Assembly (NCBI RefSeq): GCF_003609605.1
Contig: NZ_MCHY01000006.1
Span: 434,001 to 498,000, forward strand
Reading direction: 5' to 3'
DNA from: Ammoniphilus oxalaticus
Lineage (GTDB): Bacteria > Bacillota > Bacilli > Aneurinibacillales > RAOX-1
Length of the DNA stretch: 64,000 bases
The notes beneath the pieces were generated by a model that worked only from the letters and a program-made list of their open reading frames with translations, did not search any database and was not told the DNA's origin. Made by a program: the position numbers and the translations under genes. Positions 5,023-27,521 of the stretch are shown piece by piece (positions within the stretch are counted from its first letter, which is position 1; each line of letters opens with the position of its first letter).

Positions 5023-5066
5023 AAAGCCATAGACCTCCTGAAATTAGAAGTCTATGGCTTTTTTTA
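5023..5066. terminator. Bidirectional terminator between the ABC exporter and hybrid kinase 1
   Basis: A 12-bp stem, AAAGCCATAGAC (5023-5034) with GTCTATGGCTTT (5050-5061), has A/T runs on both sides and lies between convergent genes. Confidence 0.8.
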
Positions 5067-8190: not shown

Positions 8191-8224
8191 TGTACAGAAT
8201 CTGTATAGTTCACCCATTTATAAT
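8191..8224 (+). promoter_or_regulatory. SARP-type direct-repeat promoter of the adhesin gene
   Basis: TGTACAG (8191-8197) and TGTATAG (8202-8208) start 11 bp apart. Exactly 10 bp later comes a perfect -10 box TATAAT (8219-8224). No -35 hexamer is present, as expected for an activator-dependent promoter. The same layout is found at 16325-16358 and 23550-23583. The inferred activator is the BTAD-type response regulator at 15115-16251. Confidence 0.65.
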
Positions 8225-8261
8225 GGAATGTAATTACATATAGAAAGACGGTGAGCAGAAA

Positions 8262-11200
8262 TTGGTTAGAAGAATCGCTCAACTATCCCTATTATTCGCT
8301 TTGCTCTTTCAAACCTTTTTTGGTGGCATGGGTGTTCAACCACTCGTCGTTGCGCAAGAGTCGTGGACAGAGGAAGCAGTTGAAGATTCGGTAATAGACG
8401 AATCCGATGAAAATGGGGAAGTGGATGGACCTGTAGAGCAAGATCAAAATACAGGGGAAGAAGAATCTGAATCTAACGTAGAAGAGGTTGCGAAAGGCAC
8501 TCCTGAAGATGGGGACAATCTCGAAGACGGGGAATCGGAAGAAGATGTTGCTTTAGAACCTGAAAATGAAGGCAACAACTCTGAACCAGTCTCGGATGGA
8601 GAGAATCGTGGAGATGAGAAAGGTAATGAAAGTGATACAGATACAGATAAGACCGAAAAGCAAGATGCAGACAGCAAAGATCAAGTAGATGGCGAGAAGC
8701 CATCAGCTGAGAACCCAGATGAGCAACAGGAAGAAGAAAAGACAGGGCTGTTTTGGGGGCTATTTGGTGGAGTATTTGGAGGTAATTCAATCGTTGAATT
8801 CCCTTTTATCACCAATATAAGCATCAAGGATAAGGATGGCAAGGATCTAGACCAAGCTGAAAGTGTTAGTAAAAGTGAACAGGTTATACTTCGTTATGAT
8901 TGGCAGCTGCCCAACGATCATGAGATTCAAGAAGGCGCGACTTATAAATTTGCATTGCCAGAAGGCATATTTGCTATTATGAACACGATCAGTTTGTCTT
9001 TGGATTCTGACGGTGATCAAGTAGCAAATGTTAAAATTGATACGGACGGCAACGGAGTTATCACTTTTACGGAGTTTGTTGGATCTCACTCCAATGTTGA
9101 AGGATGGTTTGAAATCACTACCAAGTTTAATCCAAATGAGATACCAAATCAAAATCCAGTTGAAATTAAGTTTGAAGTGGATGGCAAATCGGAGCCTATT
9201 GTAGTGAAAGTAAACTTTGAGCAACCTGAGCCTACCATTAAGAAGACAGGAAAGTATAATGCTCAAACAAATACGATTACCTGGGTAGTCGACTTCAATA
9301 AGGAAAAGGTATCGTTGCAAAACGCTGTATTCAGCGACGCGTTGGTAGATGGACTTGAGTATGTGAATGGATCTTTTAAAGTTAGTCCAGATCCACGGGG
9401 GAATTTTAGTGAGGATAACGGGACGCTAACTTATGAATTTCCTGCCAAGATTCTTGATTCATATGCTATTACCTTTGACACGAAGGTTACCGATTTCGAA
9501 GGAACCTCGTTAATAAAGAAAAACACAGCAACGATCAAGTATAATGAAGATAAAGAAATAGAATCTAGCACTACAGTAACTGCAAATGCAAATTATATTA
9601 AGAAATCTGGTAAGGACAACTATGCGAACAAACAGATAGATTGGGAGATTATTGTTAACGAAGACGAACTTGAATTAGAGAACTTTACCATAATAGATCA
9701 ACTTCCAGTTGAACTAGAGTTAGTTATGGATTCGGTAAAATTAAATGATGGAAATTTGACGGGCTTTGAATACAAAGATGGTGAATTCAGTTATCAATTC
9801 GTGGGTGCTATCACCAGCAAGCAGATCATTACGTTTTCAACAAAAGTGCCTGAAAAATATTATAATGGCCAACACGAGATGCCGGAGTTCGAGAATGTTG
9901 CTAAGATCTTTATACCTAGTATTGGAAAAACCATCTCATCTAATAAAGTAGGCATTGGGCCGAAAACCAGCGTGATTCGAAAAACTGGAGCAGGTTATAA
10001 TCGTTCGACTCAAGAAATTACGTGGAAAATTACGGTGAACGAGAATGAGGTTGAAATTACAAATGCGGTATTAACGGACCAGATTCCCAAAGGACAGGAA
10101 TTTGTCAAAGGTTCCTTTGAGATCAATTCGAATCCAGGGGGAATATTTAGTCAAGAAGGCCAGACGTTAACTTTTACGTTCCCTGACAAGATTGAGAAAA
10201 CTTATATTATTACTTTTAAAACAAAAGTAATCAACCCAGCACACACAGCTGCAAATAAAAGTAAAAGTTATGAAAATAGCGTAACTTTGACGGGAGCCAA
10301 TATTACAGAATCCACATCAACAGGGAAACAAACAGTCACTAGTAAAGTAATTAAAAAAACAAATGAAGGTTACGACTACCTAGATAGGGTGTTAACATGG
10401 AAGATTGTCGTTAACCAAAACAAGATGGAGTTACCTAACGCGGTATTGACGGATGTGATAGGAGACGGTCAAGAGCTTGTAGAAGACTCTTTAGTACTTC
10501 CAGATGGGGCTACACACAGTTACGATAATAAAAAACTAAAAATTACCTTAGGAACGATTACTGAAGAACAGCTAATTATATTTAAAACTAGCATTGCTGA
10601 TCCAGAGTCTTTCTTCAAGGAAAATGGGGAAAAGACGGTTGAGAACACTGCGACATTAACAAACGACTTTGGCCCTTCCGAATCGAGCACTGGAACAAAG
10701 AAAATTGAAAACACGGTTGTTGCTAAAGGGGGTTCAATTGTAAATGGTGAACCGACTATTGAGTGGAAGGTAACGATTAACCAGAACAAACTGCTCCTAG
10801 GAAAAGCAATATTAACGGATGTTTTGCCTGAAGGATTGACTTTAGATACATCGTCCGTGAAACTTTATAAACAAGAGTTGGACGTTAATGGAAATCTGAC
10901 AAAAGGCATTGAAGTTAATGGCTTGGATGCCAGTAATATCTCGTATGATGGAAATGAAAGAAAATTTGTTTTCACTATGCCAGAAGTAGATAATAATAAT
11001 GAGGCCTTTCTCCTTGTATTTAGAACGGATATTTTAGACGCATCAAAATCACCGTTTAAAAATACGATCAACTTTAAAGGGTATGGCCTGAACGATGATC
11101 AAGGAACATCTAGCAATACGATTGCCTATCAGTCTGGAAGCGGTGGAGCAAGCGGAACAACAGGAAGCGTGAATATTATAAAGATTGACGCTGAAGATGA

Positions 11201-12767
11201 AACAAAAAGATTAAAAGACGCTTCGTTTGCTTTGTATGATAGGTATGGAAATTTAATTAGAGAAGCTAGTACAGGGAACAACGGTGAAGTCCTATTTGAT
11301 CGATTAAGATTTGAAATCCCTTATACGATTAAAGAGGTTTCTGCCCCAACAGGTTATTCTTTAAATGGAGAAGTGAAAGGATTCATTCTTACAAGTAAGA
11401 ATAAAAATGTTGAATACAAGGTAAAAAACGAAAAGATCACTGGAAGTATTAAGCTTATTAAGATTGATGCTGATAACAATACAACGAAACTCTCAGGAGC
11501 AATATTTGAACTCCTTGATGAGAATAAAGAAGTATTGAAACAGTCGGATGCAACGACAAGCGATGGTATTGTTGTCTTTGATAAACTAGAATTTAATACT
11601 AAGTACATTATTCGAGAAAAAACATCGCCTTGGGGCTACAAACTAAGCGACGAAGAATATTCTTTTACGCTACAAAACAATGATATTGAAAGAAATGTTG
11701 AATATGAATTCAAAAACAAGCAGTTCAAAGAAGGCTCCGTGTCAATTATAAAAGTTGACAGCCGCGATAAAAGCAAACGATTATCTGGCGCCGAGTTTGA
11801 AGTGAGGGACTCCGATGGCAAAGTTGTGGCTACAGTTATAACAGATGCCGATGGCAAAGCGGAAGTAAAAAATCTAACGTATGGAGACTACAAGTTAGTA
11901 GAAACAAAGGCTCCGCGTAATTACCAATTCGACAAAACGGAGCGCGATTTCACCATTGACGATAATGAGCATGTCATAGCGTTAGAGATTACGAATAAGA
12001 AACGACCTAGCGGAGGCGGCGGTGGAACACCTCCAACGGATCCAAAAGGTTCGCTCTCGATCATTAAGGTAGACAGCAGAGATCAGAGCAATCGATTGTC
12101 TGGAGCCACATTTGAATTAAAAGATTCTGATGGCAAAGTTGTCGCGACATTAACAACAGATGCGAACGGTCAAGCGAAAGTAGCCGATTTAGCCCTTGGC
12201 GAGTATACGTTAGTTGAAACAAAAGCTCCAGAGGGCTATGAACTTGGTGATGCGATTCGTACTATCAAGATCGAAAGAAATCACAAAGATATTACATTAG
12301 ACAAGATACCTAATGTTAAATCAACCGATCCTAAGGATCCAAAAAATCCGCAGGATCCCGATAAGCCTGTAGATCCTGAAGATCCGAATAAAGATCCAGA
12401 GGATCCTATTAATCCTGAAGATCCAGAGCAAACGGATCCGCTAGATCCAAGCAAGCCAGTTGACCCGGCGGATCCATCTGAATCTACGGATCCAGGACAA
12501 TCAGGTGAGCAAGGGGATGCTAGCGAATCCGATCAATCTGATGCTGTATCAGGCGGCGCGGAATCAGCCGACACAGGCAAAGTCGATGGACATAGTCAAT
12601 CAGGCGAGTCTGGACAAACGAAGTCTGGCAAAACGAAGTTCGACCAAGATGGTCGACAGTTGCCAAATACTGCGACACCGCTCTATAATTACGCGTTAGC
12701 GGGATTAGTGATCGTCTTAGCCGGGTTTGGATTAAGACAGTGGGGTAGTCGAAGAAGGCAACACTAG
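8262..12767 (+). CDS. Giant cell-wall-anchored adhesin with Cna_B repeats and LPNTA sorting signal
   Basis: The 1501-residue protein starts at TTG 8262 (GGTGAG upstream). A signal peptide (1-32) is followed by an acidic Glu/Asp-rich low-complexity segment (33-160), an Ig-fold-like domain (about 177-320), five related domains of about 120-130 residues, most opening with a KKTG-type strand (about 325-955), four SpaA/Cna_B-type domains (about 968-1350, each with a K-[IV]-D strand and a K-E or V-E-T-K-A-P turn typical of isopeptide-forming folds), a Pro-Asp repeat (1354-1412) and the sorting signal LPNTA (1467-1471), then a membrane helix and RRR tail. LPNTA is typical of class D sortase substrates, matching the sortase at 12861. 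Biofilm or surface adhesion is likely; the ligand is unknown. Confidence 0.93.
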   Translation: MVRRIAQLSLLFALLFQTFFGGMGVQPLVVAQESWTEEAVEDSVIDESDENGEVDGPVEQDQNTGEEESESNVEEVAKGTPEDGDNLEDGESEEDVALEPENEGNNSEPVSDGENRGDEKGNESDTDTDKTEKQDADSKDQVDGEKPSAENPDEQQEEEKTGLFWGLFGGVFGGNSIVEFPFITNISIKDKDGKDLDQAESVSKSEQVILRYDWQLPNDHEIQEGATYKFALPEGIFAIMNTISLSLDSDGDQVANVKIDTDGNGVITFTEFVGSHSNVEGWFEITTKFNPNEIPNQNPVEIKFEVDGKSEPIVVKVNFEQPEPTIKKTGKYNAQTNTITWVVDFNKEKVSLQNAVFSDALVDGLEYVNGSFKVSPDPRGNFSEDNGTLTYEFPAKILDSYAITFDTKVTDFEGTSLIKKNTATIKYNEDKEIESSTTVTANANYIKKSGKDNYANKQIDWEIIVNEDELELENFTIIDQLPVELELVMDSVKLNDGNLTGFEYKDGEFSYQFVGAITSKQIITFSTKVPEKYYNGQHEMPEFENVAKIFIPSIGKTISSNKVGIGPKTSVIRKTGAGYNRSTQEITWKITVNENEVEITNAVLTDQIPKGQEFVKGSFEINSNPGGIFSQEGQTLTFTFPDKIEKTYIITFKTKVINPAHTAANKSKSYENSVTLTGANITESTSTGKQTVTSKVIKKTNEGYDYLDRVLTWKIVVNQNKMELPNAVLTDVIGDGQELVEDSLVLPDGATHSYDNKKLKITLGTITEEQLIIFKTSIADPESFFKENGEKTVENTATLTNDFGPSESSTGTKKIENTVVAKGGSIVNGEPTIEWKVTINQNKLLLGKAILTDVLPEGLTLDTSSVKLYKQELDVNGNLTKGIEVNGLDASNISYDGNERKFVFTMPEVDNNNEAFLLVFRTDILDASKSPFKNTINFKGYGLNDDQGTSSNTIAYQSGSGGASGTTGSVNIIKIDAEDETKRLKDASFALYDRYGNLIREASTGNNGEVLFDRLRFEIPYTIKEVSAPTGYSLNGEVKGFILTSKNKNVEYKVKNEKITGSIKLIKIDADNNTTKLSGAIFELLDENKEVLKQSDATTSDGIVVFDKLEFNTKYIIREKTSPWGYKLSDEEYSFTLQNNDIERNVEYEFKNKQFKEGSVSIIKVDSRDKSKRLSGAEFEVRDSDGKVVATVITDADGKAEVKNLTYGDYKLVETKAPRNYQFDKTERDFTIDDNEHVIALEITNKKRPSGGGGGTPPTDPKGSLSIIKVDSRDQSNRLSGATFELKDSDGKVVATLTTDANGQAKVADLALGEYTLVETKAPEGYELGDAIRTIKIERNHKDITLDKIPNVKSTDPKDPKNPQDPDKPVDPEDPNKDPEDPINPEDPEQTDPLDPSKPVDPADPSESTDPGQSGEQGDASESDQSDAVSGGAESADTGKVDGHSQSGESGQTKSGKTKFDQDGRQLPNTATPLYNYALAGLVIVLAGFGLRQWGSRRRQH

Positions 12768-12778
12768 TTAAATTTCTT

Positions 12779-12820
12779 AAACAGGTGGAGAAAAGGAATC
12801 CTTTCCCCACCTGTTTTTCT
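12779..12820 (+). terminator. Terminator after the adhesin gene
   Basis: A 10-bp outer stem AAACAGGTGG/CCACCTGTTT, an inner AAAGG/CCTTT pair and a T-tract. It separates the adhesin from the sortase gene, so the sortase probably depends on read-through or its own promoter. Confidence 0.85.
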
Positions 12821-12860
12821 TTCATTAAGCTTTTAAAGTTGTGGAAAGGAGGGGGTTAGC

Positions 12861-13424
12861 TTGAGGCTGTTATCGACTTTTATGATTATTGTCGGTATCG
12901 CGCTGCTTGGTTATAGCGGCATTCAAATGTGGTCCTCAAACGAGCAACAACAGGCTGCATTATTAAAAGCGGAGCAAAGGATTATGGACCAAGCAAAGAG
13001 TGAAGGTCCTGTTGTTTTTGACCCGAAAATAGGCGAAGAAATCGGTGTGCTCTCATTGCCAAAACTAGACAGTACATTGCCAATTATTGAAGGTGTTGAC
13101 GAATCTGAGTTAAGCAGAGGTGTGGGTCATTATTATGGTACCTCTTTTCCGGATGACAAGGGGCAGATTGTATTGTCTGGTCATCGAGATACTGTTTTTC
13201 GCAGGATTGGCGAGCTGGAAATTGGCGATGAACTGGTCGTAAACATGCCTTACGGCAATTTTACTTATATTATTGAAGAAACCGAAATTGTCGAGGCTGG
13301 TGATACAACCGTGATTCGACCCGAACAAGATGAGGAATTGTTAACAGTCACGACTTGCTATCCTTTTCGGTACGTGGGCGATGCTCCTGATCGCTACATT
13401 ATATATGCTAAGCCCAAAAGTTGA
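12861..13424 (+). CDS. Class D sortase
   Basis: This 187-residue transpeptidase starts at TTG 12861 directly behind a strong GGAAAGGAGGGGG. One N-terminal membrane helix (about 3-23) anchors it outside-facing. The sortase fold carries the catalytic His108 in LSGHRD, Cys166 in TVTTC and Arg178 in APDR. The TxTC context and short length fit class D (YhcS or B. anthracis SrtC type), whose known substrates often carry LPNTA-type signals. The gene directly upstream encodes an LPNTA protein, so I infer that it attaches that adhesin to peptidoglycan. Confidence 0.92.
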   Translation: MRLLSTFMIIVGIALLGYSGIQMWSSNEQQQAALLKAEQRIMDQAKSEGPVVFDPKIGEEIGVLSLPKLDSTLPIIEGVDESELSRGVGHYYGTSFPDDKGQIVLSGHRDTVFRRIGELEIGDELVVNMPYGNFTYIIEETEIVEAGDTTVIRPEQDEELLTVTTCYPFRYVGDAPDRYIIYAKPKS

Positions 13425-13502
13425 AGCAAAGAAGGCAAGGGGTTTTTATTGATCTACTGATTTGTGTGACTAATTTCCGAATTTAATGTAGCTTTATATG
13501 CA

Positions 13503-13531
13503 TTGCAAGAATATTGAAGGTAAGATATAAA
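13503..13531 (+). promoter_or_regulatory. Possible promoter of the HemAT-like gene, with a long leader
   Basis: TTGCAA (13503-13508), a 17-bp spacer and TATAAA (13526-13531). It would give a 5' leader of about 230 nt before the start at 13770. I see no recognisable riboswitch, RNA gene or clear small ORF in the 13425-13769 gap, and no sigma-D type motif. Confidence 0.4.
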
Positions 13532-13769
13532 TATAGGGGGAGCATAAAGAACTAACGATTGATAGTCTTATGGTCCTGCTGCTTGTCGCGAGGAATGCTC
13601 TTTGATCCAATTCATCTTGTAGTGTTAGCTGATTAAGACAATCTATTTCACAGTTTTGTAAAGATCATTTGGGGTTCGTATAAGAGGTGAAAAAGGGTCA
13701 GTCTTTTACATAATGGACAGAAAAAATAAGGCTTTGAAAGAAATGTACGTAGGGGGAGAGGGTTCCTAG

Positions 13770-15077
13770 ATGTGGCCGTTGAAAAGAAATAGAAACCAAC
13801 TTAGCAATTTGGATTGGGTGAAAAGTGTCAACGATCAGACTGTCAGCATTGATTTGCAACAGTATCATGAAATAAGAAAACAGATGGAAATGATTCAATT
13901 TGATAAAAAAGAATTGCAGGTGATCAAGAGTCTTGAGTCGATTGTGGAAAAGAATATCGAGACGATTGTATCCGCATTTTACAATACGATTTTAGCGATT
14001 CCTCATTTAAAGGAAATAATTGATGAACACAGCTCGATTGATCGCCTACGGAATACGTTAAGCGGGCATATGATTGAAATGTTTAGCGGAAAAATAGATG
14101 AGGCGTTTATTCAAAAAAGGTTGCGTGTGGCTCAGGCGCACGTGCGAATCGGGTTAGAACCGAAATGGTATATCGGGGCTTTTCAAAATTTGCAAAGCGC
14201 CCTGTTTGATATCGTGAATCAGCATTTAACGAACAGAGAGGACAGTGTTCTCGCCGGAAAAGCGATTTCAAAAATATTAAATTTTGAACAACAGCTCGTG
14301 TTAGCAGAGTATGAAAAAGAGCATCTAAGATTAAGAGAGATGCAGTACGAAAAAGTAAAAGAGGAGTTAAAATCGAAGATTAGCGCGACAAGTGAAGAGT
14401 TAGTGGCCTTAACAGATCAAACGAACGCATCGGTTCAACAAGTTTCTGCTAATGTAAATGAGGTCAATCAAGCGATCCAGGATAGTTCTCATCTTTCAAA
14501 AGAGACGGAACGTCTAGCGAATTACGGTCAAGGTATGGTAGAAGGACTTGCGGGCCAAATGGAATCGATTGCGGGAGGCGCGGATCAAATGCAGGAATTT
14601 GTTCGAAAATTGGATGAATCTTCCCTTGAAATTAGGCAAATTATCTTGCTCGTTCAACGGATTGCGGATCAAACGCACCTATTGGCGTTGAATGCGGCCA
14701 TTGAAGCGGCAAGAGCGGGGGAACATGGCAGAGGATTTTCAGTTGTAGCTGATGAAGTCCGAAAGCTAGCCGAAGAATCGAAAGGTTCTGTTCAGGAAAT
14801 TACGGAATTGATTCAAGCGTCATTTGAACTGACCTCGGAAGTTACGAAATCTATCGCGGAGGTCCAAAATATTGTGGAAGCAGGCCTGCAAGGGTCGACA
14901 GCTACGCAAACGACATTTGATGAGATTCTATCATCAATGAGTCAAAGCATGGACCGTATTAAACAGGTCGAACGGGATGCGCAAGAGCTTGTCCAAGTTG
15001 TGGAAGGGATCAGTCAGGCAACAACGGAAGTAGCCGAATCCGCGGAATCTTTAAATCATTTGGCAACGAATATGTAG
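13770..15077 (+). CDS. hemAT: HemAT-like globin-coupled chemotaxis transducer
   Basis: The 435-residue soluble protein (432 in B. subtilis HemAT) has an N-terminal sensor globin (about 40-195) and a C-terminal methyl-accepting signalling domain. The proximal heme ligand is visible as His124 in [13 protein letters not shown], and Tyr71 matches the distal B10 tyrosine of HemAT. The tip hairpin [14 protein letters not shown] and the following [18 protein letters not shown] are classic MCP motifs. The family senses oxygen for aerotaxis through CheA/CheW. Here it sits between sortase and biofilm regulator genes. The start ATG has GGGGAGAGGG upstream. Confidence 0.93.
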
Positions 15078-15088
15078 CGATTGGCAAG

Positions 15089-15117
15089 AGACCGTCATCA
15101 AAGATGACGGTCTTTTA
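15089..15117. terminator. Bidirectional terminator between hemAT and the response regulator
   Basis: An 11-bp stem AGACCGTCATC/GATGACGGTCT with a 3-nt loop and a T-run on the + side. It lies between convergent genes and reaches the regulator stop codon. Confidence 0.85.
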
Positions 15118-16251
15118 TTTTGGTTTAACCACTTCTGTTCTCCACTGCTCATACCACTTTTTAACATGCGGACTAACTGCTAGATCCAACTCGGCTAATG
15201 CTATTTTCATTTGATTGTATTGTCGCTCAACTTCAGAGAACGCCCCGAAGGAAGCGTAACCTATCATTAATTGAAAATGAGCCCGTTCATCCTCCGCTTT
15301 GTACGAACAAATTTTTGTGTACCAATTTTTGGCCTTTTCAAAATTGTCGTGTTCATTATAGTGATCGGCGATCATGTAAGCATACTGTAACCAGCGCTGC
15401 TCCAAACGATACCGTTCGGGTTCTGCCCATAAATAATCATAATCTTGTAGGTAGGCCCCTGTGTAAAAATTCAACGCCGCTTCATATTCAGTGAGGGTTT
15501 CCTGGGTAAGAGGTGGAAGGGATGTAAGTTTTTCTTCCCACTCTACGGCATCAATGTGGACATCGTTGAGAAGTAAAATGTAGCCTTCCGATGTGTTTTT
15601 AATTGAACAATGCTCACCAAAATGACTGAGTGTTTTTCGGATATGATAGATCGTTGTGTATAGCTGTGAAAAAGCCCGTTGTTCATCGACATCTGGCCAT
15701 AAGAGCTCAATGAGTTCGGATTTTTGGGCCGTTTTCTTTTGATGATGCAGCAAATAAAGGAAACATTCTTGCGCTTTGGACGTACGCCATTGAATGACTT
15801 TGCGCGGGCTGTTGCCTGAGGTATTGTATGTCAACTTTCCAAATAGATTAAATTGCAGTTTGCTCTCCCGCGCAAGGGGACGACTTCGATCTTGTAATTG
15901 CGTCTTGATGCGGGTGATTGTTTTTTGTAGGCGATCCGTTTGAGCGGGCTTTAACACATAGTCCAATGCATTCAGTTCAAATGCCTGCACCGCATATTCA
16001 TGAAAGGCGGTTACAAAAACGATGGCTAAATTCTTGTTTACTTCAAGTAATTGTTCGGCTAATTCAAGGCCGTTTTTTCCAGGCATTTCAATATCTAAGA
16101 ACACAAGGTCAATATTTTGTAGTAGCTTCTCGCGCTCAGCGATCTCTAAATTCGTTAATTTCTCAACTATGACGATATTGCTAATTTTATTTATTTGATG
16201 TTCTAGAAAATCTAAGGCAAGTGGTTCGTCGTCAACAAGAATCGCCCTCAT
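15115..16251 (-). CDS. Response regulator with SARP-like winged helix and BTAD output domain
   Basis: The 378-residue protein has an N-terminal receiver (1-120) with acidic residues in VDDEP and phospho-acceptor Asp53 in FLDIEMPG, then a winged-helix DNA-binding domain (about 130-225) and a bacterial transcriptional activator (BTAD) helical domain (about 230-370, WEEKL and the tetratricopeptide-like DNFEKAKNWYTKIC). This combination links a two-component receiver to SARP-type promoter activation. It lies between two hybrid kinases with LytS-type modules, its likely phospho-donors, and is divergent from the polysaccharide operon. Three nearby promoters carry SARP-style 11-bp direct repeats, so it probably activates adhesin, polysaccharide operon and diguanylate cyclase together. 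Confidence 0.9.
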   Translation of the reverse strand: MRAILVDDEPLALDFLEHQINKISNIVIVEKLTNLEIAEREKLLQNIDLVFLDIEMPGKNGLELAEQLLEVNKNLAIVFVTAFHEYAVQAFELNALDYVLKPAQTDRLQKTITRIKTQLQDRSRPLARESKLQFNLFGKLTYNTSGNSPRKVIQWRTSKAQECFLYLLHHQKKTAQKSELIELLWPDVDEQRAFSQLYTTIYHIRKTLSHFGEHCSIKNTSEGYILLLNDVHIDAVEWEEKLTSLPPLTQETLTEYEAALNFYTGAYLQDYDYLWAEPERYRLEQRWLQYAYMIADHYNEHDNFEKAKNWYTKICSYKAEDERAHFQLMIGYASFGAFSEVERQYNQMKIALAELDLAVSPHVKKWYEQWRTEVVKPK

Positions 16252-16324
16252 CTGTTCTCCTCCATAAGTATTAAGTCAACGCTCCAGGATGCATGTAGTC
16301 ACACATATACTATTATAGATTCAA

Positions 16325-16358
16325 TGTATAGTTTTTGTATAGTTTTGGACTGTATGAT
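16325..16358 (+). promoter_or_regulatory. SARP-type direct-repeat promoter of the polysaccharide operon
   Basis: TGTATAG (16325-16331) and TGTATAG (16336-16342) are perfect direct repeats 11 bp apart. After 10 bp comes the -10 box TATGAT (16353-16358). No -35 box is visible. Spacing is identical to the sites before the adhesin and the diguanylate cyclase. Confidence 0.7.
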
Positions 16359-16403
16359 GGATATCAATTGTGTGCGAGAGTATACGGAATGGTGTGAAGT
16401 ATT

Positions 16404-17486
16404 ATGTTGCTAAAGTGGATTTTGCGAGTTAGTTCTATCCTTCTTATTGTTTTGTTGGTTGTAATTAGGGTGAATTTGGTAAAAGAGACGGAGCAGCAAG
16501 ATATCTTGGAACGACCAATCCTTCAAACAGAGCAATTTATCTTTAATCATTTGCTTGATGAAGCGGGTATGATCCGTACAGATTTTAAGGGAAATCCAAA
16601 TGGAAACCTCATATTATCTGAATCGATGGGGTTATGGTTAGAATATCTTGCGCTAAAAAAGGATAATTCTCTTTTTGATTCAGCTTACCTTGCGTTAAAG
16701 AAAGACTTTATTAGTAAAGAGAATCTCGTGATGTGGAAAGTGGAAGGAAGCGTTAGGGCGGATACGAATGCCTTGATAGATGATTTGCGGATTATTGCTT
16801 CTTTATTTCGCAAAGGGGAACAAATGAATCGGAGCGATTATATCAAGCAAGCCATACGCCTGTCTAAATCTATAATGAAATATAATCGGCAAGACGATTA
16901 TTTTGTTGATTTTTATGATGTGAGATACAAGTATCAGAACAAAGAATTGACTCTTTCTTATCTAATTCCAAAGGCCTTTCAATATATGGTTAATTACGGG
17001 GTAATTACAGTCGATGAACTCGATCAACTTCGGGACTTTTTACGCAATATGCCTACGGATAATGGATTTTATCCAAAGTATTATTCTGTTGAAGATAATC
17101 GATTTCATTTTGATCAAGAAATTAATTTAATAGATCAATTGTATACTGTGATTCACCTAGAAGGATTCGGAATATCGACCGATTCATTTTTCAAGTGGAT
17201 TAAAGATATCTATCTCCAGGAAAACGTCATATATGGTCGATATGATCGGTTGAGTAAGCAACGGATAGTTGAATATGAAGCCCCAGCTGTTTATGCGTTG
17301 TTAGTTATTTATAGTCTAGAAAAAAATGAACGCGCGTTTGCTAAGAGTGTTTATGAACGGATGACTGAATTGCGATCGGACGATCCGATGTCTACGTATA
17401 AGGGGGGGTATGTATTCTCTAATTCAACCCATTCTTTTGATAATTTATTGGCATTGGTGGCGGAGAGGAAATTATTGAATGAATAA
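16404..17486 (+). CDS. ydaJ: Glycoside hydrolase family 8-like protein of the exopolysaccharide operon (YdaJ-type)
   Basis: This 360-residue protein has one N-terminal membrane helix (about 5-23) and an all-alpha extracellular domain. LILSESMGLWLEYL resembles the catalytic-acid region of GH8 enzymes (Glu73 in SES), and RADTNALIDDLRI resembles the second catalytic region (Asp120). In cellulose-type secretion systems such an enzyme trims or releases polymer. It is the first of five overlapping genes in the order of B. subtilis ydaJKLMN; the next gene overlaps it by 8 bp. The promoter has the SARP-like repeat. Family assignment is by motif and context, not by search. Confidence 0.8.
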   Translation: MLLKWILRVSSILLIVLLVVIRVNLVKETEQQDILERPILQTEQFIFNHLLDEAGMIRTDFKGNPNGNLILSESMGLWLEYLALKKDNSLFDSAYLALKKDFISKENLVMWKVEGSVRADTNALIDDLRIIASLFRKGEQMNRSDYIKQAIRLSKSIMKYNRQDDYFVDFYDVRYKYQNKELTLSYLIPKAFQYMVNYGVITVDELDQLRDFLRNMPTDNGFYPKYYSVEDNRFHFDQEINLIDQLYTVIHLEGFGISTDSFFKWIKDIYLQENVIYGRYDRLSKQRIVEYEAPAVYALLVIYSLEKNERAFAKSVYERMTELRSDDPMSTYKGGYVFSNSTHSFDNLLALVAERKLLNE

Positions 17487-18330
17487 AATTTTAAATAAAA
17501 ATAATCTTTTGTTTATTTTGCTAACGAGCATCTTATTATTAGTGCTCAGTTTTGGTTTGTTTTTATTTCCGCGGGGACAAGGCGGGGCCATCCTATATAC
17601 ACTGGGATTGTTCATCGGTCTTGTCGGAGTGATAGGGGGCGCCGTTGCGGCTTTAGGCTTTACATTGCTTTTATTTTTTATGATTGGCAGCGTTATGTTT
17701 TGGACAGCTTTTACTGAAACTCCATTATTTAATATAGACATTTCATTTTTCGTCATTATCGTGTGGATGATCGGCATGCTGCTTATTTCTTTGCTTACGG
17801 GGCAAATGTCATCCCAACTGAAAGCAATGCACGATGAGAATCAATCATTGCGCGAGCAGATCAGAACGTTAGTTGCAATTGATCCGACCACTGGCTTTGA
17901 TAATAAAGAGCGGATGTTGGTTGAACTTGAATTAGAATTCAATCGTTCTAAACGATATAAGCAAACATTTACCTTTGTATTAATGAAAATCAATCATTTA
18001 GATCAATTTGAAAAATTGTACGGAGTAAAAGAAATGAACAGACTGTTCCAACATTTTGCTAAAGGGATTCATCGTTGTGTAAGAGCGAGCGATCAAAAAT
18101 ATCGTCCGGAAAAGGATATGTTTGCTTTGATCTTGCCTTATACGGAAATTAGTGATGTGAAAGTTGTGATCCAAAAGTTAGAAAAGGAACTAAAAGTATA
18201 TCAGCTGGAAAATCGAAAATATACGACGTTAACAATTGAGTATGGGTACATCGGTTTGGATGAAAGAATTAGCCAGTTTTCAAATATTTACGAGTTAGCG
18301 AAAGAACAGGTGTCTGCCCATGTTTCGTAG
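17479..18330 (+). CDS. ydaK: Membrane c-di-GMP receptor with degenerate GGDEF domain (YdaK-type)
   Basis: The 283-residue protein has three to four membrane helices (about 8-108) and a cytoplasmic GGDEF-like domain (about 125-283). The active-site motif is EKDMF (211-215) instead of GGDEF, so it should be catalytically dead. The inhibitory-site motif RASD (202-205) is intact at exactly the canonical distance, five residues before the motif. That is the pattern of a c-di-GMP-binding receptor, as in Listeria PssE and B. subtilis YdaK. It overlaps the genes on both sides (8 and 11 bp). I infer that it activates the glycosyltransferase complex when c-di-GMP is high. Confidence 0.88.
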   Translation: MNKILNKNNLLFILLTSILLLVLSFGLFLFPRGQGGAILYTLGLFIGLVGVIGGAVAALGFTLLLFFMIGSVMFWTAFTETPLFNIDISFFVIIVWMIGMLLISLLTGQMSSQLKAMHDENQSLREQIRTLVAIDPTTGFDNKERMLVELELEFNRSKRYKQTFTFVLMKINHLDQFEKLYGVKEMNRLFQHFAKGIHRCVRASDQKYRPEKDMFALILPYTEISDVKVVIQKLEKELKVYQLENRKYTTLTIEYGYIGLDERISQFSNIYELAKEQVSAHVS

Positions 18331-20059
18331 ATTCTTGTCATTGTTGCTTGTTTCTTTGTTAGTTTTGCCTATGATGGCCAATGGAGCGCGCGCGAAACAA
18401 CAGCTCGAAGCTTTACAAAATGATGATGTACGAGTCTTGCTTATCTATTCTAATGAAAATAGCGCTGAAAGTGTGGCCGTTCGAAAATTAGATTTATTGC
18501 TTCATCATTTTACAAAGCATGTTCGTTTAGTCGCTGATTTTGCGCTCACAGAACAAATGCTGAAAGACGCTACGCACGTTATTTATTACGGGGAGACGGA
18601 GCGGCAGTTAAATAAAGAAGTGGTTTCTCTAATGAAGGGCATTAAAAAACCATTGATTATGGTTGGCGAAAACTTTGAACAGTTCTCTTCTTTTAATAGG
18701 CGGATGGGGGCAATTTTAGCGGTAAATCAGATTAGTCAGCAGGACTCGGCAACCTATTTTCAATCATCGCCGCTCTTAATTAAGCCCATTCATGTTACTG
18801 AGGAGATGGAGGTCATGTTGTATGGGGTTAAAGAGGAAGAACGCGTTCCGCTGTTTGTTCAGTATGAAGATGAGTACGCGCTTACTTCAAGTGGGGTCTT
18901 AGAAGAATTAGTCTACTATTATATTGCGGAAATACTCCATGAGATACTACCGAATAATCATGCCGATGAACATCTGGCTTATCTTCGCCTGGAAGATATT
19001 CACCCGATGTCCGATCCGAAAAAATTAAAAGATGTTGCCGCTTATCTGGAGGAGCGAGGCATTCCTTATCTACTCGTTGTGATCCCTGTTTATATTACAC
19101 CTAACACGGGGGAGCGAGTGTATTTTGCCGATTCTCCAGAGTTAGTCGAAGTTCTGCGAGAATTACAAAATAAGGGAGGGACAGTCATTTCCCACGGATA
19201 TACGCACCAATACCGAGACAGTGAAACGGGAGAAGGATTTGAATTTTGGGACGTAGTAAATGACCAATTTATTATTGAATCAAATCCGAATAATTCGATT
19301 GAAACGATTAGGACGATCGATCAATTTCCAAACGAAGAAGAATATCGGGCCTATATTGAACCGCTTAAAAAAAAAGAGAGAAAGTATGTAAAAAAACGAA
19401 TAAAAGATTCAATTCATGAGTTGGCATCGCATGAATTGTATCCATTAGCTTTTGAAGCCCCGCATTATACGATGTCTCAACAAGGATATGAGATCGTTGC
19501 AGATTATTTCACGTCAATTTTTGGTCAAATTCAATTAAGTGATGAAAATTGGGAGCAAATGAGCGCCCCACCATACCTCTCTTCCGCTCATCTTTTGCGC
19601 GGGATGGCTCTTTATCCTGAAACGATTGGGTATGTGGATGGGACAGTGGAAGGATCTATGGAAAACCAAAAGCGATTAAATCAAGTATTAATTGTTAGGG
19701 ATAGCGTGATCGGTGGATTTTATCATCCTTATTTAGGCGTAGAACCTTTGCCCGAATTTTTATCCCTCTATGAGAAGGTTCCAAATTTAAAATGGATCGA
19801 TTTTAAAAAGCATTCTAATGCGGTAAAGACTTCAAGGGTTCAGATCTCAACTGAAAAAACAGGGACGATTCATATCAAAAATGACATAGCGCGATGGGAA
19901 AATATATGGAATCATTCAGAGCTATCCAGTCTTGAAAAAGTTTTATGGGGATTAACCACAATTGTTCTTTTATTCATCCTCTTGTTTTTGGCATTTTCCT
20001 TTTATTTGAGAACACAGGTAAAAAAACGATTGTTTAAGGAGAGAGACACGATTGGCTAA
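18320..20059 (+). CDS. ydaL: DUF2334 / polysaccharide deacetylase-like membrane protein (YdaL-type)
   Basis: The 579-residue protein has a signal peptide (about 1-25, ending near GARA) and a C-terminal membrane helix (about 540-565), so most of it lies outside the membrane. The central part shows DUF2334 features: RLEDIHPM, a strand LLVVIPVYITP and VISHGYTHQY, resembling the metal-binding surface of deacetylase-like barrels. The start overlaps ydaK by 11 bp. By position it is likely to modify or help export the operon's polysaccharide. Deacetylase activity is inferred only from the fold family. Confidence 0.82.
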   Translation: MFRRFLSLLLVSLLVLPMMANGARAKQQLEALQNDDVRVLLIYSNENSAESVAVRKLDLLLHHFTKHVRLVADFALTEQMLKDATHVIYYGETERQLNKEVVSLMKGIKKPLIMVGENFEQFSSFNRRMGAILAVNQISQQDSATYFQSSPLLIKPIHVTEEMEVMLYGVKEEERVPLFVQYEDEYALTSSGVLEELVYYYIAEILHEILPNNHADEHLAYLRLEDIHPMSDPKKLKDVAAYLEERGIPYLLVVIPVYITPNTGERVYFADSPELVEVLRELQNKGGTVISHGYTHQYRDSETGEGFEFWDVVNDQFIIESNPNNSIETIRTIDQFPNEEEYRAYIEPLKKKERKYVKKRIKDSIHELASHELYPLAFEAPHYTMSQQGYEIVADYFTSIFGQIQLSDENWEQMSAPPYLSSAHLLRGMALYPETIGYVDGTVEGSMENQKRLNQVLIVRDSVIGGFYHPYLGVEPLPEFLSLYEKVPNLKWIDFKKHSNAVKTSRVQISTEKTGTIHIKNDIARWENIWNHSELSSLEKVLWGLTTIVLLFILLFLAFSFYLRTQVKKRLFKERDTIG

Positions 20060-21308
20060 TACTTTATTTCTACTTTCTCTAGTCGTGATCTGGGTGATGC
20101 TTCTGTATCATATGTTTCTCATGTTAGGTGGTTATTTACATTTCACACGTTTTGAACGTGTCATCCCTCAATGGAAAAAGAAGTTAACTGATTTGCCAAC
20201 AGTAAGCATTTTAATTCCCGCACACAACGAGGCGGTAGTTATTGAAAAAACATTAAGGGCGATGATTCGCCTTGAATATCCTAAAGATCGACTGGAAGTC
20301 GTCGTGATTAATGATAATTCCACTGATAAAACAGGAGAAATTGCTCGCAAAATCGCAATGGACCATCCTTTCATAAAGGTAGTCGACACGATGCCGCCTC
20401 GCGCTGGAAAAGGGAAATCAAGCGCGTTGAACCAAGGCTTTGAGATATCGACTGGAAAGTACATTATTGTTTACGATGCCGATAATACACCGGAAAAAAA
20501 AGCAGTCTATTATCTCGTAATGGGTCTGGAAAACGATCAGAAAGCTGGCGCAATTGTAGGGAAGTTTAGAGTTAGTAATGCAAAGAGAACGTTGCTAACG
20601 CGATTTATTAATATAGAAACGATTTGTTTTCAATGGATGGCCCAGGCGGGGCGATGGTTCTGGTTTAAAATGACGACAATACCGGGAACAAATTTTGCGA
20701 TTCGTCGTTCAATCATTGAAACTTTAGGCGGGTGGGATGAACAAGCGCTTGCAGAAGATACAGAGTTGTCTATTCGTGTCTATAATCTCGGGTATTCTAT
20801 TCGATTTTTTCCGGCAGCCATTACGTGGGAACAAGAACCGGAAACGTGGAAGGTTTGGTGGCGACAACGAACGAGATGGGCGAGAGGGAATCAGTATGTT
20901 GTTGTAAAGTTTATGCGGACGTTTTTAAGTTTGGAAAGAAAGATAGTGGCTTTCGACTTAATTTATTTTTTCTTTACGTATTTTTTGTTTTTTTCGGGCG
21001 TGATTGTTTCCAACATTATTTTTATAACGAATTTATTTATTGATCTTCAGTTAACGATCGGCCTCGTATCGATCATTTTATGGGTTCTGGCATATTTTTT
21101 ATATGTTACTGAGGTCTTTATAACACTGAGTATTGAACAAACCGAGATGACATTAACTAACTTTTTCATAGTGTTATTAATGTATTTCACCTATTCACAA
21201 TTGTGGATTATATTGGTGGCATATTCTTTGATTTTGGAAATCAAACGCGCATTATTAAGACAGGAAGTGCAGTGGTATAAAACAGAGCGATTTGACTCTG
21301 AATCATGA
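20052..21308 (+). CDS. ydaM: Processive family 2 glycosyltransferase, synthase subunit (YdaM-type)
   Basis: The 418-residue protein has an N-terminal membrane helix, a GT2 catalytic domain and at least three C-terminal helices. Visible motifs are SILIPAHNE, VVINDNSTDKT, the metal-binding YDADN, the acceptor-site AEDTEL and QRTRW, which together make the D, DxD, D, Q-x-x-R-W pattern of BcsA-like processive synthases. It lacks a PilZ domain, so c-di-GMP control must come from a separate subunit, namely the upstream receptor. It overlaps ydaL by 8 bp and is followed 18 bp later by the BcsB-like gene. The polymer is not known; Listeria's related Pss system makes a ManNAc-Gal polymer. Confidence 0.9.
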   Translation: MANTLFLLSLVVIWVMLLYHMFLMLGGYLHFTRFERVIPQWKKKLTDLPTVSILIPAHNEAVVIEKTLRAMIRLEYPKDRLEVVVINDNSTDKTGEIARKIAMDHPFIKVVDTMPPRAGKGKSSALNQGFEISTGKYIIVYDADNTPEKKAVYYLVMGLENDQKAGAIVGKFRVSNAKRTLLTRFINIETICFQWMAQAGRWFWFKMTTIPGTNFAIRRSIIETLGGWDEQALAEDTELSIRVYNLGYSIRFFPAAITWEQEPETWKVWWRQRTRWARGNQYVVVKFMRTFLSLERKIVAFDLIYFFFTYFLFFSGVIVSNIIFITNLFIDLQLTIGLVSIILWVLAYFLYVTEVFITLSIEQTEMTLTNFFIVLLMYFTYSQLWIILVAYSLILEIKRALLRQEVQWYKTERFDSES

Positions 21309-21326
21309 TAGGCGGAGTGTGCGCAT

Positions 21327-23486
21327 ATGAGATATAAAATGAATAAATTGTTTCAGAGATTAACTATATTAGTACTAAGTTTGCTTCTAATCCTTCCTTC
21401 AATAACTACAGAGGCTGTTGGCTTTCCGTTGCAGGGTAGAACGATCCAATTAAATGACGATATCTTTCAAAGCGACGGAAGTGAAAGTTCGACAGTGTCT
21501 ATAATCAATTTGACAGCGCAAGATCAAGTGTTGGAAGGAATGGCTGATAACGTTGAGTTTTTCTATGAAATCCCATCAGGATCGGGTTTAGATGGAAGTA
21601 TGTTGAATTTAATTGTCCAATATTCTGAACTTCTACAGGAAGGTTCTACGATGACAGTTTACATTGATGATAAACCATTCCATAGCGAAGCTTTACAAAT
21701 GGATCGACAGGCAATGGAGATTAAAAGACCTTTGCCAACTGAAGCGCTCAGTGAAGGTTTTCATACGATTAGAGTGAATTTTTATGGCCATATATCGGAA
21801 GAGCTTTGCGCTGATTTGGAGAATCCTGCAAATTGGTTGATGATTTTAGCGGAGAGCCATCTCGTAATGCATACGAATGATCGCTCAGATAGAATCAATA
21901 TGTTACAAGATTATCCATATCCATTTATTCAAAGACAACAGGCTAAAACCGTTCAATCGGTCCTCGTGATTCCGGATGAAGCTTCTGCGTCAGTCATACT
22001 GGCGGCATTAAAACTAACAAATTACTTAAGTCATCATGCTAGCGATCAGGAAGAAATAATGATTGTAAGAGAATCAGAGTTAAATATGATATCTACTAAT
22101 ATTATTGCATTGGGAAAACAGGAGGATTGGACGGGGATCATACGAAAAGTATTTAATGCGGCGAATGTAAAAGTCGAGAATGAAAATCTTGTAGTAAGTA
22201 ACTATCTCATCAGAGCTTCTGCTGAATCGAAACAAATTATGTTTATTACGGCATTAAAAGATCAAATCATTTCAGATAAGATTACTGCGCTAACAACCGA
22301 TCATTTTGTTAAACAATTAGCAGGGGATCAACTTTCGATTGATAAGATACCAACTCTAGCTAAGGAGGAAAAGGCAGAACGTCACGTATTTCAAGAGATA
22401 GGTATTGCTAATCAAACATTGACAGAAGCGAGAAAAAAATCTTTGAACTATTTTTTTCAGTTACCTTCCTATGTTGATGTAGAACAAGATGGTACATTGC
22501 ATTTAAAAATTAGAGCATCTAAACCTTTAGCAAGATCAGAGCGTAGAGGAAATGAAGACGGTGCTGAGCTAGTCGTCATTATAAATGAAATTCCACATTC
22601 AATTGATATTCGAGAACAACTACAAGAATCCGAAGAATCTTTTGTTAATGTGGAGATTCCGATCGAAGCTGAGCAAATCAAGAAAGCTCCCTACTTAACA
22701 ATTCAATTTGAGGCAATTGGACTTGGCGAACCTAAAATTTGTGTTCCTGTTGAGGATGGAAGATGGATTTTTGTACATGAAGAAAGTTATTTACAATTTG
22801 GCACTCGTGAATATAGAACAGAAAGTAATTTTAAAACATGGCCTGATCCGTTCGTTTCGATTGACAGTAATGACGAAACAGTTTTTCTGTTGCCGAATGA
22901 TGTCCCTACCGATTCCCTCAACCAATTGCAAAGGATTATATTGAGAAATAATGATCGCAATTTTTTGGATAACGTAGAAATTATATTTGAAAAAGAGTTA
23001 AATGAAACCAATTTATTAGGAAAACATGTCATTATCTTCGGGAGATTTGGACTTAATCTACTTTTAACCACCTATCAAGATCAGTTAATTGTTGATGTTG
23101 AAAATAACAGGTTAGATCTGTCCTCATTCCAATTTGTTAATGAAACAGCTAAGCATGTAGCCTGGCTACAGCCATCAGTGTGGGATGATAGCAAAATCAT
23201 GGCAGTGTTTGCTCCCGTGCAGGCGCAGACAACTGAACCGTTTTTAATTGATGGTTTGATTCGGTATATAAATACAAATCGACCCAACACAAATATAATT
23301 GTTGAAAATAATAACGGACAAATCTTTACACATCAATTGAAAGAAGGTGGAACGGTTGCGATACCTGACTCAACTAAACGAGATAAAGGCCAAGTTAAGC
23401 TACTGCCACTGATAATATTTGCTGGGATCTTCATTTTTAGCATGGCAATTTTTATTTTATTGTATCAGAAAAAGCGTTCATCCTAA
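21327..23486 (+). CDS. ydaN: BcsB-like exopolysaccharide secretion subunit (YdaN-type)
   Basis: The 719-residue protein has a signal peptide (about 1-31), a large extracellular beta-rich region and one C-terminal membrane helix (about 692-713) with a short basic tail. This is the layout of BcsB, which guides the nascent glycan from the synthase. Segments such as VNFYGHISEELCADLENPANW fit the cellulose-synthase-subunit B family. It is the last gene of the operon. No convincing terminator follows; the next gene has its own repeat-type promoter. Confidence 0.85.
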   Translation: MRYKMNKLFQRLTILVLSLLLILPSITTEAVGFPLQGRTIQLNDDIFQSDGSESSTVSIINLTAQDQVLEGMADNVEFFYEIPSGSGLDGSMLNLIVQYSELLQEGSTMTVYIDDKPFHSEALQMDRQAMEIKRPLPTEALSEGFHTIRVNFYGHISEELCADLENPANWLMILAESHLVMHTNDRSDRINMLQDYPYPFIQRQQAKTVQSVLVIPDEASASVILAALKLTNYLSHHASDQEEIMIVRESELNMISTNIIALGKQEDWTGIIRKVFNAANVKVENENLVVSNYLIRASAESKQIMFITALKDQIISDKITALTTDHFVKQLAGDQLSIDKIPTLAKEEKAERHVFQEIGIANQTLTEARKKSLNYFFQLPSYVDVEQDGTLHLKIRASKPLARSERRGNEDGAELVVIINEIPHSIDIREQLQESEESFVNVEIPIEAEQIKKAPYLTIQFEAIGLGEPKICVPVEDGRWIFVHEESYLQFGTREYRTESNFKTWPDPFVSIDSNDETVFLLPNDVPTDSLNQLQRIILRNNDRNFLDNVEIIFEKELNETNLLGKHVIIFGRFGLNLLLTTYQDQLIVDVENNRLDLSSFQFVNETAKHVAWLQPSVWDDSKIMAVFAPVQAQTTEPFLIDGLIRYINTNRPNTNIIVENNNGQIFTHQLKEGGTVAIPDSTKRDKGQVKLLPLIIFAGIFIFSMAIFILLYQKKRSS

Positions 23487-23549
23487 TGATTGAATGGTAA
23501 AGTGGTCTGAAAAGTAGTCAGGTTACAACGATCAACTAGAAAGCTCCTC

Positions 23550-23583
23550 TGTATATATTTTGTATAGTTCCCTGGTGTAGAGT
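23550..23583 (+). promoter_or_regulatory. SARP-type direct-repeat promoter of the diguanylate cyclase
   Basis: TGTATAT (23550-23556) and TGTATAG (23561-23567) start 11 bp apart. After 10 bp comes TAGAGT (23578-23583) as a weaker -10 box. The layout is the same as at 8191 and 16325. Confidence 0.6.
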
Positions 23584-23637: not shown

Positions 23638-24414
23638 ATGTCTGACTCTGAATTTATTGTTATTTCATTGCTTACGTTGTTAATACTTCTCCAATTACTT
23701 GGACTCCTATTCAACTATTCTACGAGAACTCAGCTCCAGTCTCATCTTGGAACGCTGAAGAGGGTAATGCTTGAAGCGCAAACTGGGAAAGACTTTAAAT
23801 CCATGATGTTGGATCCTCTCGGAAGTTCTAAGGAATTAGAACAAGTCGTCTTGGCGTTTAATGAAATGTTAGCGACGATTCAACAGCGGGAAAAAATGTT
23901 AAAGAAACTGTCTTATACTGATCCATTAACGGGCGCGGCGAATCGGCGCGCGTTTGAACAGTATTTTGATGAACAATGGGGGATAGCTAGCTCAAATGAA
24001 TCTGCTCTATCCGTTGCGTTAATCGATATTGATCACTTTAAAAGGTTTAATGATCGATTTGGGCATTTAGCTGGGGACCAATGCTTAAAAGAAGTCACGG
24101 TAGCGGTTGAACAGACTCTATGCAATTCGAACTCCTTTCTGGCTCGTTATGGCGGAGAAGAATTTATTATCATTTTGCCAGGGATAGAGATCGATGAAGC
24201 GGCTCAAATCGCGGAGCAAGCGCGTAAAAATATAGCGGAGCTTCGAATCCCAATGGGGATAGATTATAACAAGCAAAACTTTATCACGATTAGTATCGGT
24301 GTGGCAAGTATTACTCCATCCAGCAAAATGGCTAAAGAGGATCTTATTGAGGTGGCGGATCAAGCGTTATATGAAGCCAAAAGCGGAGGAAGAAACAAGG
24401 TGGTTATAAAATAG
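23638..24414 (+). CDS. Membrane-bound diguanylate cyclase lacking the inhibitory site
   Basis: This 258-residue protein has one N-terminal membrane helix (about 6-26), a linker with a coiled-coil-like segment (about 65-90) and a GGDEF domain (about 93-258). The catalytic motif GGEEF (172-176) and the substrate residues in DIDHFKRFNDRFGH are intact, so it should make c-di-GMP. The product-inhibition motif RxxD is replaced by NSNS (163-166), so feedback control is probably lost. It sits just downstream of the c-di-GMP-dependent polysaccharide operon and shares its promoter type. I infer a dedicated signal source for that operon. Confidence 0.93.
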   Translation: MSDSEFIVISLLTLLILLQLLGLLFNYSTRTQLQSHLGTLKRVMLEAQTGKDFKSMMLDPLGSSKELEQVVLAFNEMLATIQQREKMLKKLSYTDPLTGAANRRAFEQYFDEQWGIASSNESALSVALIDIDHFKRFNDRFGHLAGDQCLKEVTVAVEQTLCNSNSFLARYGGEEFIIILPGIEIDEAAQIAEQARKNIAELRIPMGIDYNKQNFITISIGVASITPSSKMAKEDLIEVADQALYEAKSGGRNKVVIK

Positions 24415-24453
24415 TAGAAGAGATAGGGTTATCCACATCTCTTCTACTATTTT
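24413..24453. terminator. Bidirectional terminator between the cyclase and hybrid kinase 2
   Basis: A perfect 12-bp stem AGTAGAAGAGAT/ATCTCTTCTACT (24413-24424, 24437-24448) followed by ATTTTTAAT, between convergent genes. Confidence 0.88.
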
Positions 24454-27400: not shown

Positions 27401-27521
27401 CGGGAGCTTGATGGTATTGGACCCAAGCGATACGAAAGCCTGATAGTAAAAAAAGAAACAAGATCATTCCGATCCATAGTTTTCCAAAGTTAAGCGGTTT
27501 TGACGCAGCCATCGGGGTCAT
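24453..27521 (-). CDS. Hybrid histidine kinase 2: 7TMR-DISM sensor, HisKA/HATPase, receiver, LytS-type kinase
   Basis: The 1022-residue paralogue of the kinase at 5064-8060 has the same domain order, with all key sites intact. It has a first membrane helix (about 14-34), an extracellular DISM-type domain (about 45-205), seven helices (about 212-411), a HisKA with His443 in TSHELRNPL, a HATPase (about 545-655, IQILFNLLHNAIKYT, VIDTGRGI, GLGLHICKEL), a receiver with Asp746 in VISDVMMP and a LytS-type module with His837 in QIQPHFLFN plus a second HATPase (about 925-1020). It is convergent with the cyclase. Together with kinase 1 it brackets the polysaccharide locus and probably phosphorylates the BTAD regulator. 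Confidence 0.93.
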   Translation of the reverse strand: MTPMAASKPLNFGKLWIGMILFLFLLSGFRIAWVQYHQAPDDHPQAQNGLLDLSEWAMSERQTASLDGEWLFYPNKFIDPNAHAHLASELIRAPGPWSHVSKGSKPIHFGSYLLTIQLPNNHSDNQLYGIHIKDIPAARVYQNEQLLMQIGVPAKTADQYESRTGKYKEFFKPESNRVELVIHVANFENTVDGGMLESITFGTAKAIDRQVSFSHLMQWIVVGILLTHSLYAFVLYAMGRNRQPELLYFGGVLLFASLSILVDDDKILLSLLPINVEWSLKWLYLTFAGTVFFILKFNQSVFQLKGALLRGLLFTYTIASAALLILPNSFVNAVGALIMLMNLFSYSYIFIIVLKQLKSGNRDAIFIFVSNIVNLYNVLWGVAINLRLTQIPYYPFDYLIGIFAFAGFLFKRHLRIVQLNEKQTKELQQADKIKDQFLANTSHELRNPLHGIMNITQTILRDKQEHLHPKTKNNLQLLLLISQHMTLTLNDLLDISRLDEKQIKLRKQNIYLPAVTTGVIDMIRFMNLEKNIALTVAIPKSFPKVNADEHRLIQILFNLLHNAIKYTKEGSITVQATHDRRLATISVIDTGRGINEHTIQHLFERYKQAENATSPNEGGIGLGLHICKELVELHGGTISIESKVGEGSTFRFTLPLADFVGDERIDYNEVAVTLENEPTVAFSSPTPDQTDALGNQPSILIVDDDPVNLQVIKQVLEADYEVVTAQSGQSALAWIKKRDFDLVISDVMMPNMSGYELTQIIRRQWTAFELPILLLTARNQTEDINAGFQSGANDYVAKPLDALELRARVNALTELKKSVDEQLRLEAAWLQAQIQPHFLFNTLNTIASLSEIDITRMTKLLHEFGNYLRRSFDIQNLRSRVSLQAELELIESYLYIEKERFGDRLRIEWKVPEGLDFQLPPLSIQPLVENAVRHGVLQRIRGGTIEINVNEAETFYLITVTDDGVGISPTKVQELLAKQPHESPSLGITNTHHRLIKQYGMGLEITSKPDHGTTVRFQIPRD

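Follow-up and report, generated by a model that had tools for sequence, protein, structure and literature searches.

A two-component activator of the SARP type very likely controls a surface-attachment regulon in Ammoniphilus oxalaticus, as judged from sequence. In the window (the whole 64-kb stretch of DNA that has been analysed, to which positions without a contig name refer), three promoters with heptamer direct repeats precede an adhesin gene, an exopolysaccharide (EPS) operon and a diguanylate cyclase gene, and a response regulator with winged helix and BTAD domain is encoded in the middle of the region (Table 1). The idea put forward in the initial annotation, that this regulator would activate all three promoters, is well supported, and the regulon has been found to extend beyond A. 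oxalaticus, as the pairing of regulator and motif recurs in many Bacilli. In actinomycetes, SARPs are known for activating antibiotic clusters. What appears to be new is a SARP mechanism that is coupled to a receiver domain, is found outside the phylum of the actinomycetes and serves a surface or biofilm programme, while SARP activators, the ydaJKLMN operon and the c-di-GMP riboswitch in front of sinI are each already known separately. The literature on SARP or BTAD regulators and biofilm in Bacilli has yielded no such regulon, which is weak evidence with subscription journals scarcely covered.

Table 1. Promoter elements and genes of the proposed regulon in the window
Feature	Positions	Strand	Basis
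Second 7TMR-DISM hybrid kinase, LytS-type module intact, without Pfam HisKA match	5064..8060	-	
SARP-style direct repeat, adhesin-sortase promoter	8191..8208	+	exact match, one of four in the genome
-10 box TATAAT	8219..8224	+	N10 3' of the 8191 repeat
Large surface adhesin: Big_8, five Collagen_bind, four SpaA, C-terminal LPNTA-type sorting signal	8262..12767	+	Pfam, translation
Sortase	12861..13424	+	Pfam Sortase 8e-31
Response regulator (P0001), proposed activator: LytR/BtsR-like receiver, OmpR-type winged helix, BTAD	15115..16251	-	
SARP-style direct repeat, EPS operon promoter	16325..16342	+	exact match
-10 box TATGAT	16353..16358	+	N10 3' of the 16325 repeat
First gene of EPS operon, without Pfam match, YdaJ position	16404..17486	+	
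Membrane protein, degenerate GGDEF (PEKDMF), YdaK-like	17479..18330	+	Pfam GGDEF 2.5e-20, motif
DUF2334 protein, YdaL position	18320..20059	+	
GT2 polysaccharide synthase, PgaC/IcaA-like, YdaM position	20052..21308	+	
BcsB-like protein, YdaN position	21327..23486	+	
SARP-style direct repeat, diguanylate cyclase promoter	23550..23567	+	exact match to TGTANANNNNNTGTATAG
-10 box TAGAGT	23578..23583	+	N10 3' of the 23550 repeat
Diguanylate cyclase, intact GGEEF	23638..24414	+	Pfam GGDEF 2e-47, motif
7TMR-DISM hybrid histidine kinase: HisKA, receiver, LytS-type His_kinase module	24453..27521	-	Pfam

Repeats and -10 boxes in the window and the genome

The initial annotation had described the three sites as heptamer direct repeats with an 11-bp period, a -10 box at a distance of 10 bp and no -35 box, and the sequences match this account. 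The repeats read TGTACAG-AATC-TGTATAG, TGTATAG-TTTT-TGTATAG and TGTATAT-ATTT-TGTATAG, each followed after N10 by its -10 hexamer, and the T that ends the first heptamer of the 23550 site had been covered by the "G/T" of that description. A -35 box is indeed absent at all three, as the best hexamer 16-18 bp 5' of the -10 box agrees with TTGACA at 2 of 6 positions. In the 64-kb window the repeat has been found eight times with up to two mismatches, against 1.8 matches expected, and none of 100 shuffles reached eight. A third heptamer 11 bp 5' of 16325 (TATAGAT at 16314, 4/7 match) has not been counted.

The genome-wide scan at fixed spacing that had been suggested as a check has been carried out on 3.32 Mb in 13 contigs. 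The repeat itself occurs without mismatch at exactly four places; once the -10 box is required at N10, four perfect promoters remain, no further promoter has a single mismatch and 19 have two, the last class corresponding to background (23 matches in total vs 24 in the reversed control). The one-mismatch matches to the repeat alone mostly lack a -10 box at N10 and have been removed by this requirement. The fourth site lies at C6:536337, 38 kb past the window end, and is followed by a c-di-GMP-I riboswitch (RF01051, L004:1705-1790, 72.4 bits against a gathering score of 35) and then by sinI, which encodes a short antirepressor of 44 residues (P0008, Pfam SinI 5e-14) in a genome that also encodes two SinR-like HTH plus SinI-type proteins. 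This site, outside the stretch from which the function had been proposed, fits that function. A possible weak fifth site at C6:552106 has the first heptamer AGTACCG, a perfect second heptamer and the -10 box TAAAAT, with a gene for a small membrane protein behind it.

The arrangement of these promoters closely resembles that of described SARP promoters, with 11-bp-period direct repeats that overlap the -35 region and lie near the -10 box. The afs box of AfsR consists of 22 bp with two 11-bp repeats and is centred at -29.5, and as a rule of thumb the downstream SARP repeat lies 8 bp from the -10 box, with a period of 11 (or 22) bp (PMC10936776). With the -10 hexamer taken as -12 to -7, arithmetic on the sequence lets the 22-bp box 8191-8212 span -40 to -19, and its centre falls at -29.5 as well. 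The gap between heptamer and -10 box is 10 bp here compared with 8 bp in the published rule, whereas the centre of the box is the same. AfsR at the afsS promoter shares with the present system the winged helix and BTAD fold, the 11-bp-period repeats and the absence of a good -35 box; it differs in its C-terminal NOD/TPR part, in place of which the Bacilli regulator carries an N-terminal receiver, in the heptamer (TGTTCAG/TGTATAG here), in the host class, which is Bacilli here, and in its targets, which here are adhesin, exopolysaccharide, c-di-GMP and SinI genes and not antibiotic genes.

The regulator and the motif across Bacilli

The winged helix and the BTAD domain that the initial annotation had assigned to the regulator have been confirmed by profile matches and by a structure model. 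The receiver is matched by Response_reg at 1.8e-20, the BTAD domain of ∼120 residues at 3.5e-10, above the Pfam cut-off, and the winged helix (Trans_reg_C) at 1.2e-4, below it; no other BTAD protein is encoded in the genome. The receiver residues D7, D8, D53 and K101 do not vary across 38 relatives, so the regulator is probably phosphorylated. In the AlphaFold2 model, which has been built from these 38 relatives and has a mean pLDDT of 91, residues 130-376 align with the whole SARP domain of AfsR (8k60, promoter complex; Z 17.7, 239 residues, rmsd 4.6), and the EmbR structures 2ff4 and 2fez are among the best Foldseek matches. EmbR of Mycobacterium tuberculosis likewise combines winged helix and BTAD and controls cell-envelope genes; it carries an FHA domain with Ser/Thr kinase control and, unlike the regulator here, no receiver domain. 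The order of an OmpR-type winged helix followed by BTAD is that of SARPs, the receiver with its phosphorylatable aspartate is that of two-component systems, and the extra BTAD domain sets the protein apart from the plain PhoP/PhoB architecture of the OmpR family. The secondary-metabolite targets typical of described actinomycete SARPs are replaced by surface, polysaccharide and signalling genes, and the genome has its relatives among Bacilli such as those with SinI/SinR. The regulator has therefore been assigned to the SARP type on the strength of its domain architecture and promoters, and has not been grouped with the antibiotic regulators of Streptomyces.

Fourteen other genomes of the order hold no close relative of the EPS operon, and the conservation of the promoter has therefore been followed via the regulator. 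A single-protein search of named genomes has retrieved distant loci only, mostly by receiver-domain matches. Among 399 Bacilli genomes, 86 contain a regulator relative (E<=1e-45), and the extended motif is present in 69 of these 86 compared with 24 of the 313 without one (Fisher p 3.6e-40). At genus level, which limits double counting of relatives, the contrast persists with 20/26 vs 15/119 (p 2e-10). The genomes with a regulator yield 252 sites against 19 matches in the reversed control and those without 31 against 32, so that the motif stands at chance level where no regulator relative exists; the 17 of 86 regulator-bearing genomes that lack the exact motif mostly hold more distant relatives. 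The density of sites amounts to 36.7 per Mb near regulator genes and, estimated from site and genome counts, to ∼0.5 per Mb over regulator-bearing genomes.

When TGTNNAG-N4-TGTNNAG followed by TANNNT was searched with gaps of 6 to 14 in 47 regulator neighbourhoods, the window and the fourth site, 37 exact matches were found at N10, one at N12 and none at any other gap, and the reversed sequence gave no match. Positions that had been left free in the search are conserved too among 116 distinct sites, namely the spacer AATT, with ∼1 bit per position, and the A in fourth and fifth place of the -10 box, which results in the consensus TGTTCAG-AATT-TGTTYAG-N10-TANAAT. Simple gene calling places 118 of 124 sites in intergenic DNA, with a median of 100 bp between the inferred transcription start and the start codon. 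In one relative (L154), two BTAD regulator genes stand in tandem, and a c-di-GMP-I riboswitch (80.6 bits) is found in the same 20 kb.

Genes behind the sites

In the window, the sortase gene starts 94 bp 3' of the adhesin gene, with which it probably forms one operon. A gene for a soluble protoglobin-MCP protein (13770-15077, plus strand), probably a haem oxygen sensor, lies between sortase and regulator and lacks a SARP-style site. The EPS operon is of the ydaJKLMN type, as a degenerate GGDEF protein, a DUF2334 protein, a GT2 synthase and a BcsB-like protein are united in one operon in the same order by domain (unknown, degenerate GGDEF, DUF2334, GT2, BcsB-like) as in Bacillus subtilis. There, the operon is under SigB, in contrast to the SARP-type promoter here, and EPS depends on YdaK as a c-di-GMP receptor (PMC13274460); the degenerate GGDEF protein in the A. 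oxalaticus operon is a candidate for the same function. A c-di-GMP riboswitch before sinI has been reported in Bacillus methanolicus (PMC4342826), compared with three such units here (sinI-like genes at C6:536541, C6:529428 and C12:2821; L025, L028 and L027), one of which also has a SARP-style promoter. Further c-di-GMP-I riboswitches precede a flagellar flgB-like gene (C8:476518, L029) and adjoin chemotaxis-receptor genes (C6:578095, L026). Contig C9 encodes several more SinI-like and two SinR-like proteins at ∼651846-694945, and the genome holds about six SinI antirepressors.

One hundred first genes behind sites have been compared with 100 other genes of the same loci. Sortases (11 vs at most one), adhesin domains (nine each with Collagen_bind and Big_8; three control genes with Collagen_bind) and GGDEF domains (seven vs at most one) are enriched behind the sites, the bounds on the control reflecting that Sortase and GGDEF fall outside its 25 top domains listed; the few control genes with adhesin domains are explained by control loci that contain the same operons. 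Receivers (14 vs eight) and polysaccharide deacetylases (two vs four) are not clearly enriched, and UDP-glucose dehydrogenases (three), SLH (three) and 7TMR-DISM (two) have been found as rarer first genes. Large LPXTG or SLH proteins stand behind many sites, and some sites precede genes without an obvious biofilm role, such as those for tail-collar proteins, acetyltransferases and NUDIX proteins. Several sites lie at the regulator itself: in another family (L160), a site with one mismatch directly adjoins the regulator gene and is followed by a SinI gene, in L167 a site precedes the regulator gene, and in L182 a one-mismatch site is followed by a 7TMR-DISM kinase gene and then by the regulator gene. 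In one genus of the same order (L195, L196, L202 and similar loci), sites are often found before genes for small phage-tail-collar-like and SLH proteins, at times as a run of several sites, and in one family (L173, L176, L183, L191, L254, L260, L262) the site is repeatedly located 5' of a stand-alone CheY-like receiver gene.

Alternative readings and a proposed mechanism

PhoP-type regulators are near-universal in Bacilli, Pho boxes are heptamer-like direct repeats that share the 11-bp period and lie about as far from the -10 box, and the DNA-binding domain of SARPs is itself of the OmpR type. The motif alone does not separate the two kinds of binding, and PhoP or another OmpR/PhoB-type regulator might thus bind the repeats with the BTAD regulator as a bystander. 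We regard this as improbable, as the motif tracks the BTAD regulator and falls to chance level in genomes without it, sites are many-fold denser around its gene and precede this gene or its neighbours in several relatives, and the target genes are not phosphate genes. Still less probable is a promoter of an alternative sigma factor, in which the heptamers would form part of a -35-like element. A constant gap from the upstream element to the -10-like box would suit such a promoter, as would the SigB control of ydaJKLMN in B. subtilis (PMC13274460), but the upstream element is a repeat with an 11-bp period, its centre at ∼-29.5 is that of the AfsR box (PMC10936776), the -10 box has the sigma-A form TANAAT, and the presence of the motif follows the BTAD regulator, a protein other than a sigma factor.

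A different question is what the programme serves if regulator and repeats are real. It could be a general remodelling of the cell surface, e.g., for adhesion to carbohydrate substrates or as a change linked to sporulation, and not biofilm formation. Sortase/adhesin or SLH genes account for many of the targets, some targets have no relation to matrix, carbohydrates may be ligands of 7TMR-DISM sensors, and all of this would agree with remodelling; the ydaJKLMN products, moreover, promote spore adhesion in B. subtilis (PMC13274460). The convergence of SinI, c-di-GMP synthesis, a c-di-GMP riboswitch and a polymer operon with a GGDEF-type receptor in one genome argues against it, and we consider general remodelling unlikely, although it deserves some weight.

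For the SARP-type activator of a surface-attachment regulon, the following mechanism may be proposed. The two flanking 7TMR-DISM hybrid kinases would receive the signal and phosphorylate the regulator, a pairing suggested by their gene positions and by the LytS-type last module of the kinases, which suits the LytR-type receiver of the regulator. The kinase encoded at 24453-27521 is a candidate partner on the basis of neighbourhood and domain type. In the kinase encoded at 5064-8060, the first phospho-acceptor histidine has apparently been lost (ESTDKLWSP vs NTSHELRNP in its paralogue). Each of the two heptamers would then be occupied by one protomer, both on the same side of the helix, where they would substitute for the absent -35 box, and the bound regulator, by analogy with the AfsR structures, would recruit RNA polymerase. 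The c-di-GMP made by the diguanylate cyclase may act on the degenerate GGDEF protein of the EPS operon, and the sinI transcript would run through the c-di-GMP-I riboswitch, by which c-di-GMP would become a second gate on sinI. We infer that adhesin, polymer and c-di-GMP would rise jointly under the regulator, as the initial annotation had suggested, and SinR antagonism along with them, and we propose that adhesin, EPS, cyclase and gated sinI are outputs of a coherent feed-forward arrangement.

It is likely that Bacilli possess a widespread class of phosphorylation-controlled SARPs with the fixed promoter code TGTTCAG-AATT-TGTTYAG-N10-TANAAT, which co-ordinates sortase-anchored adhesins, matrix polysaccharide, c-di-GMP and SinI/SinR. 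If this is true, a new regulator would stand alongside Spo0A, SinR and SigB, its regulon could be listed in any sequenced genome from sequence alone, and one two-component signal would be tied to adhesin, polymer, c-di-GMP and SinI together.
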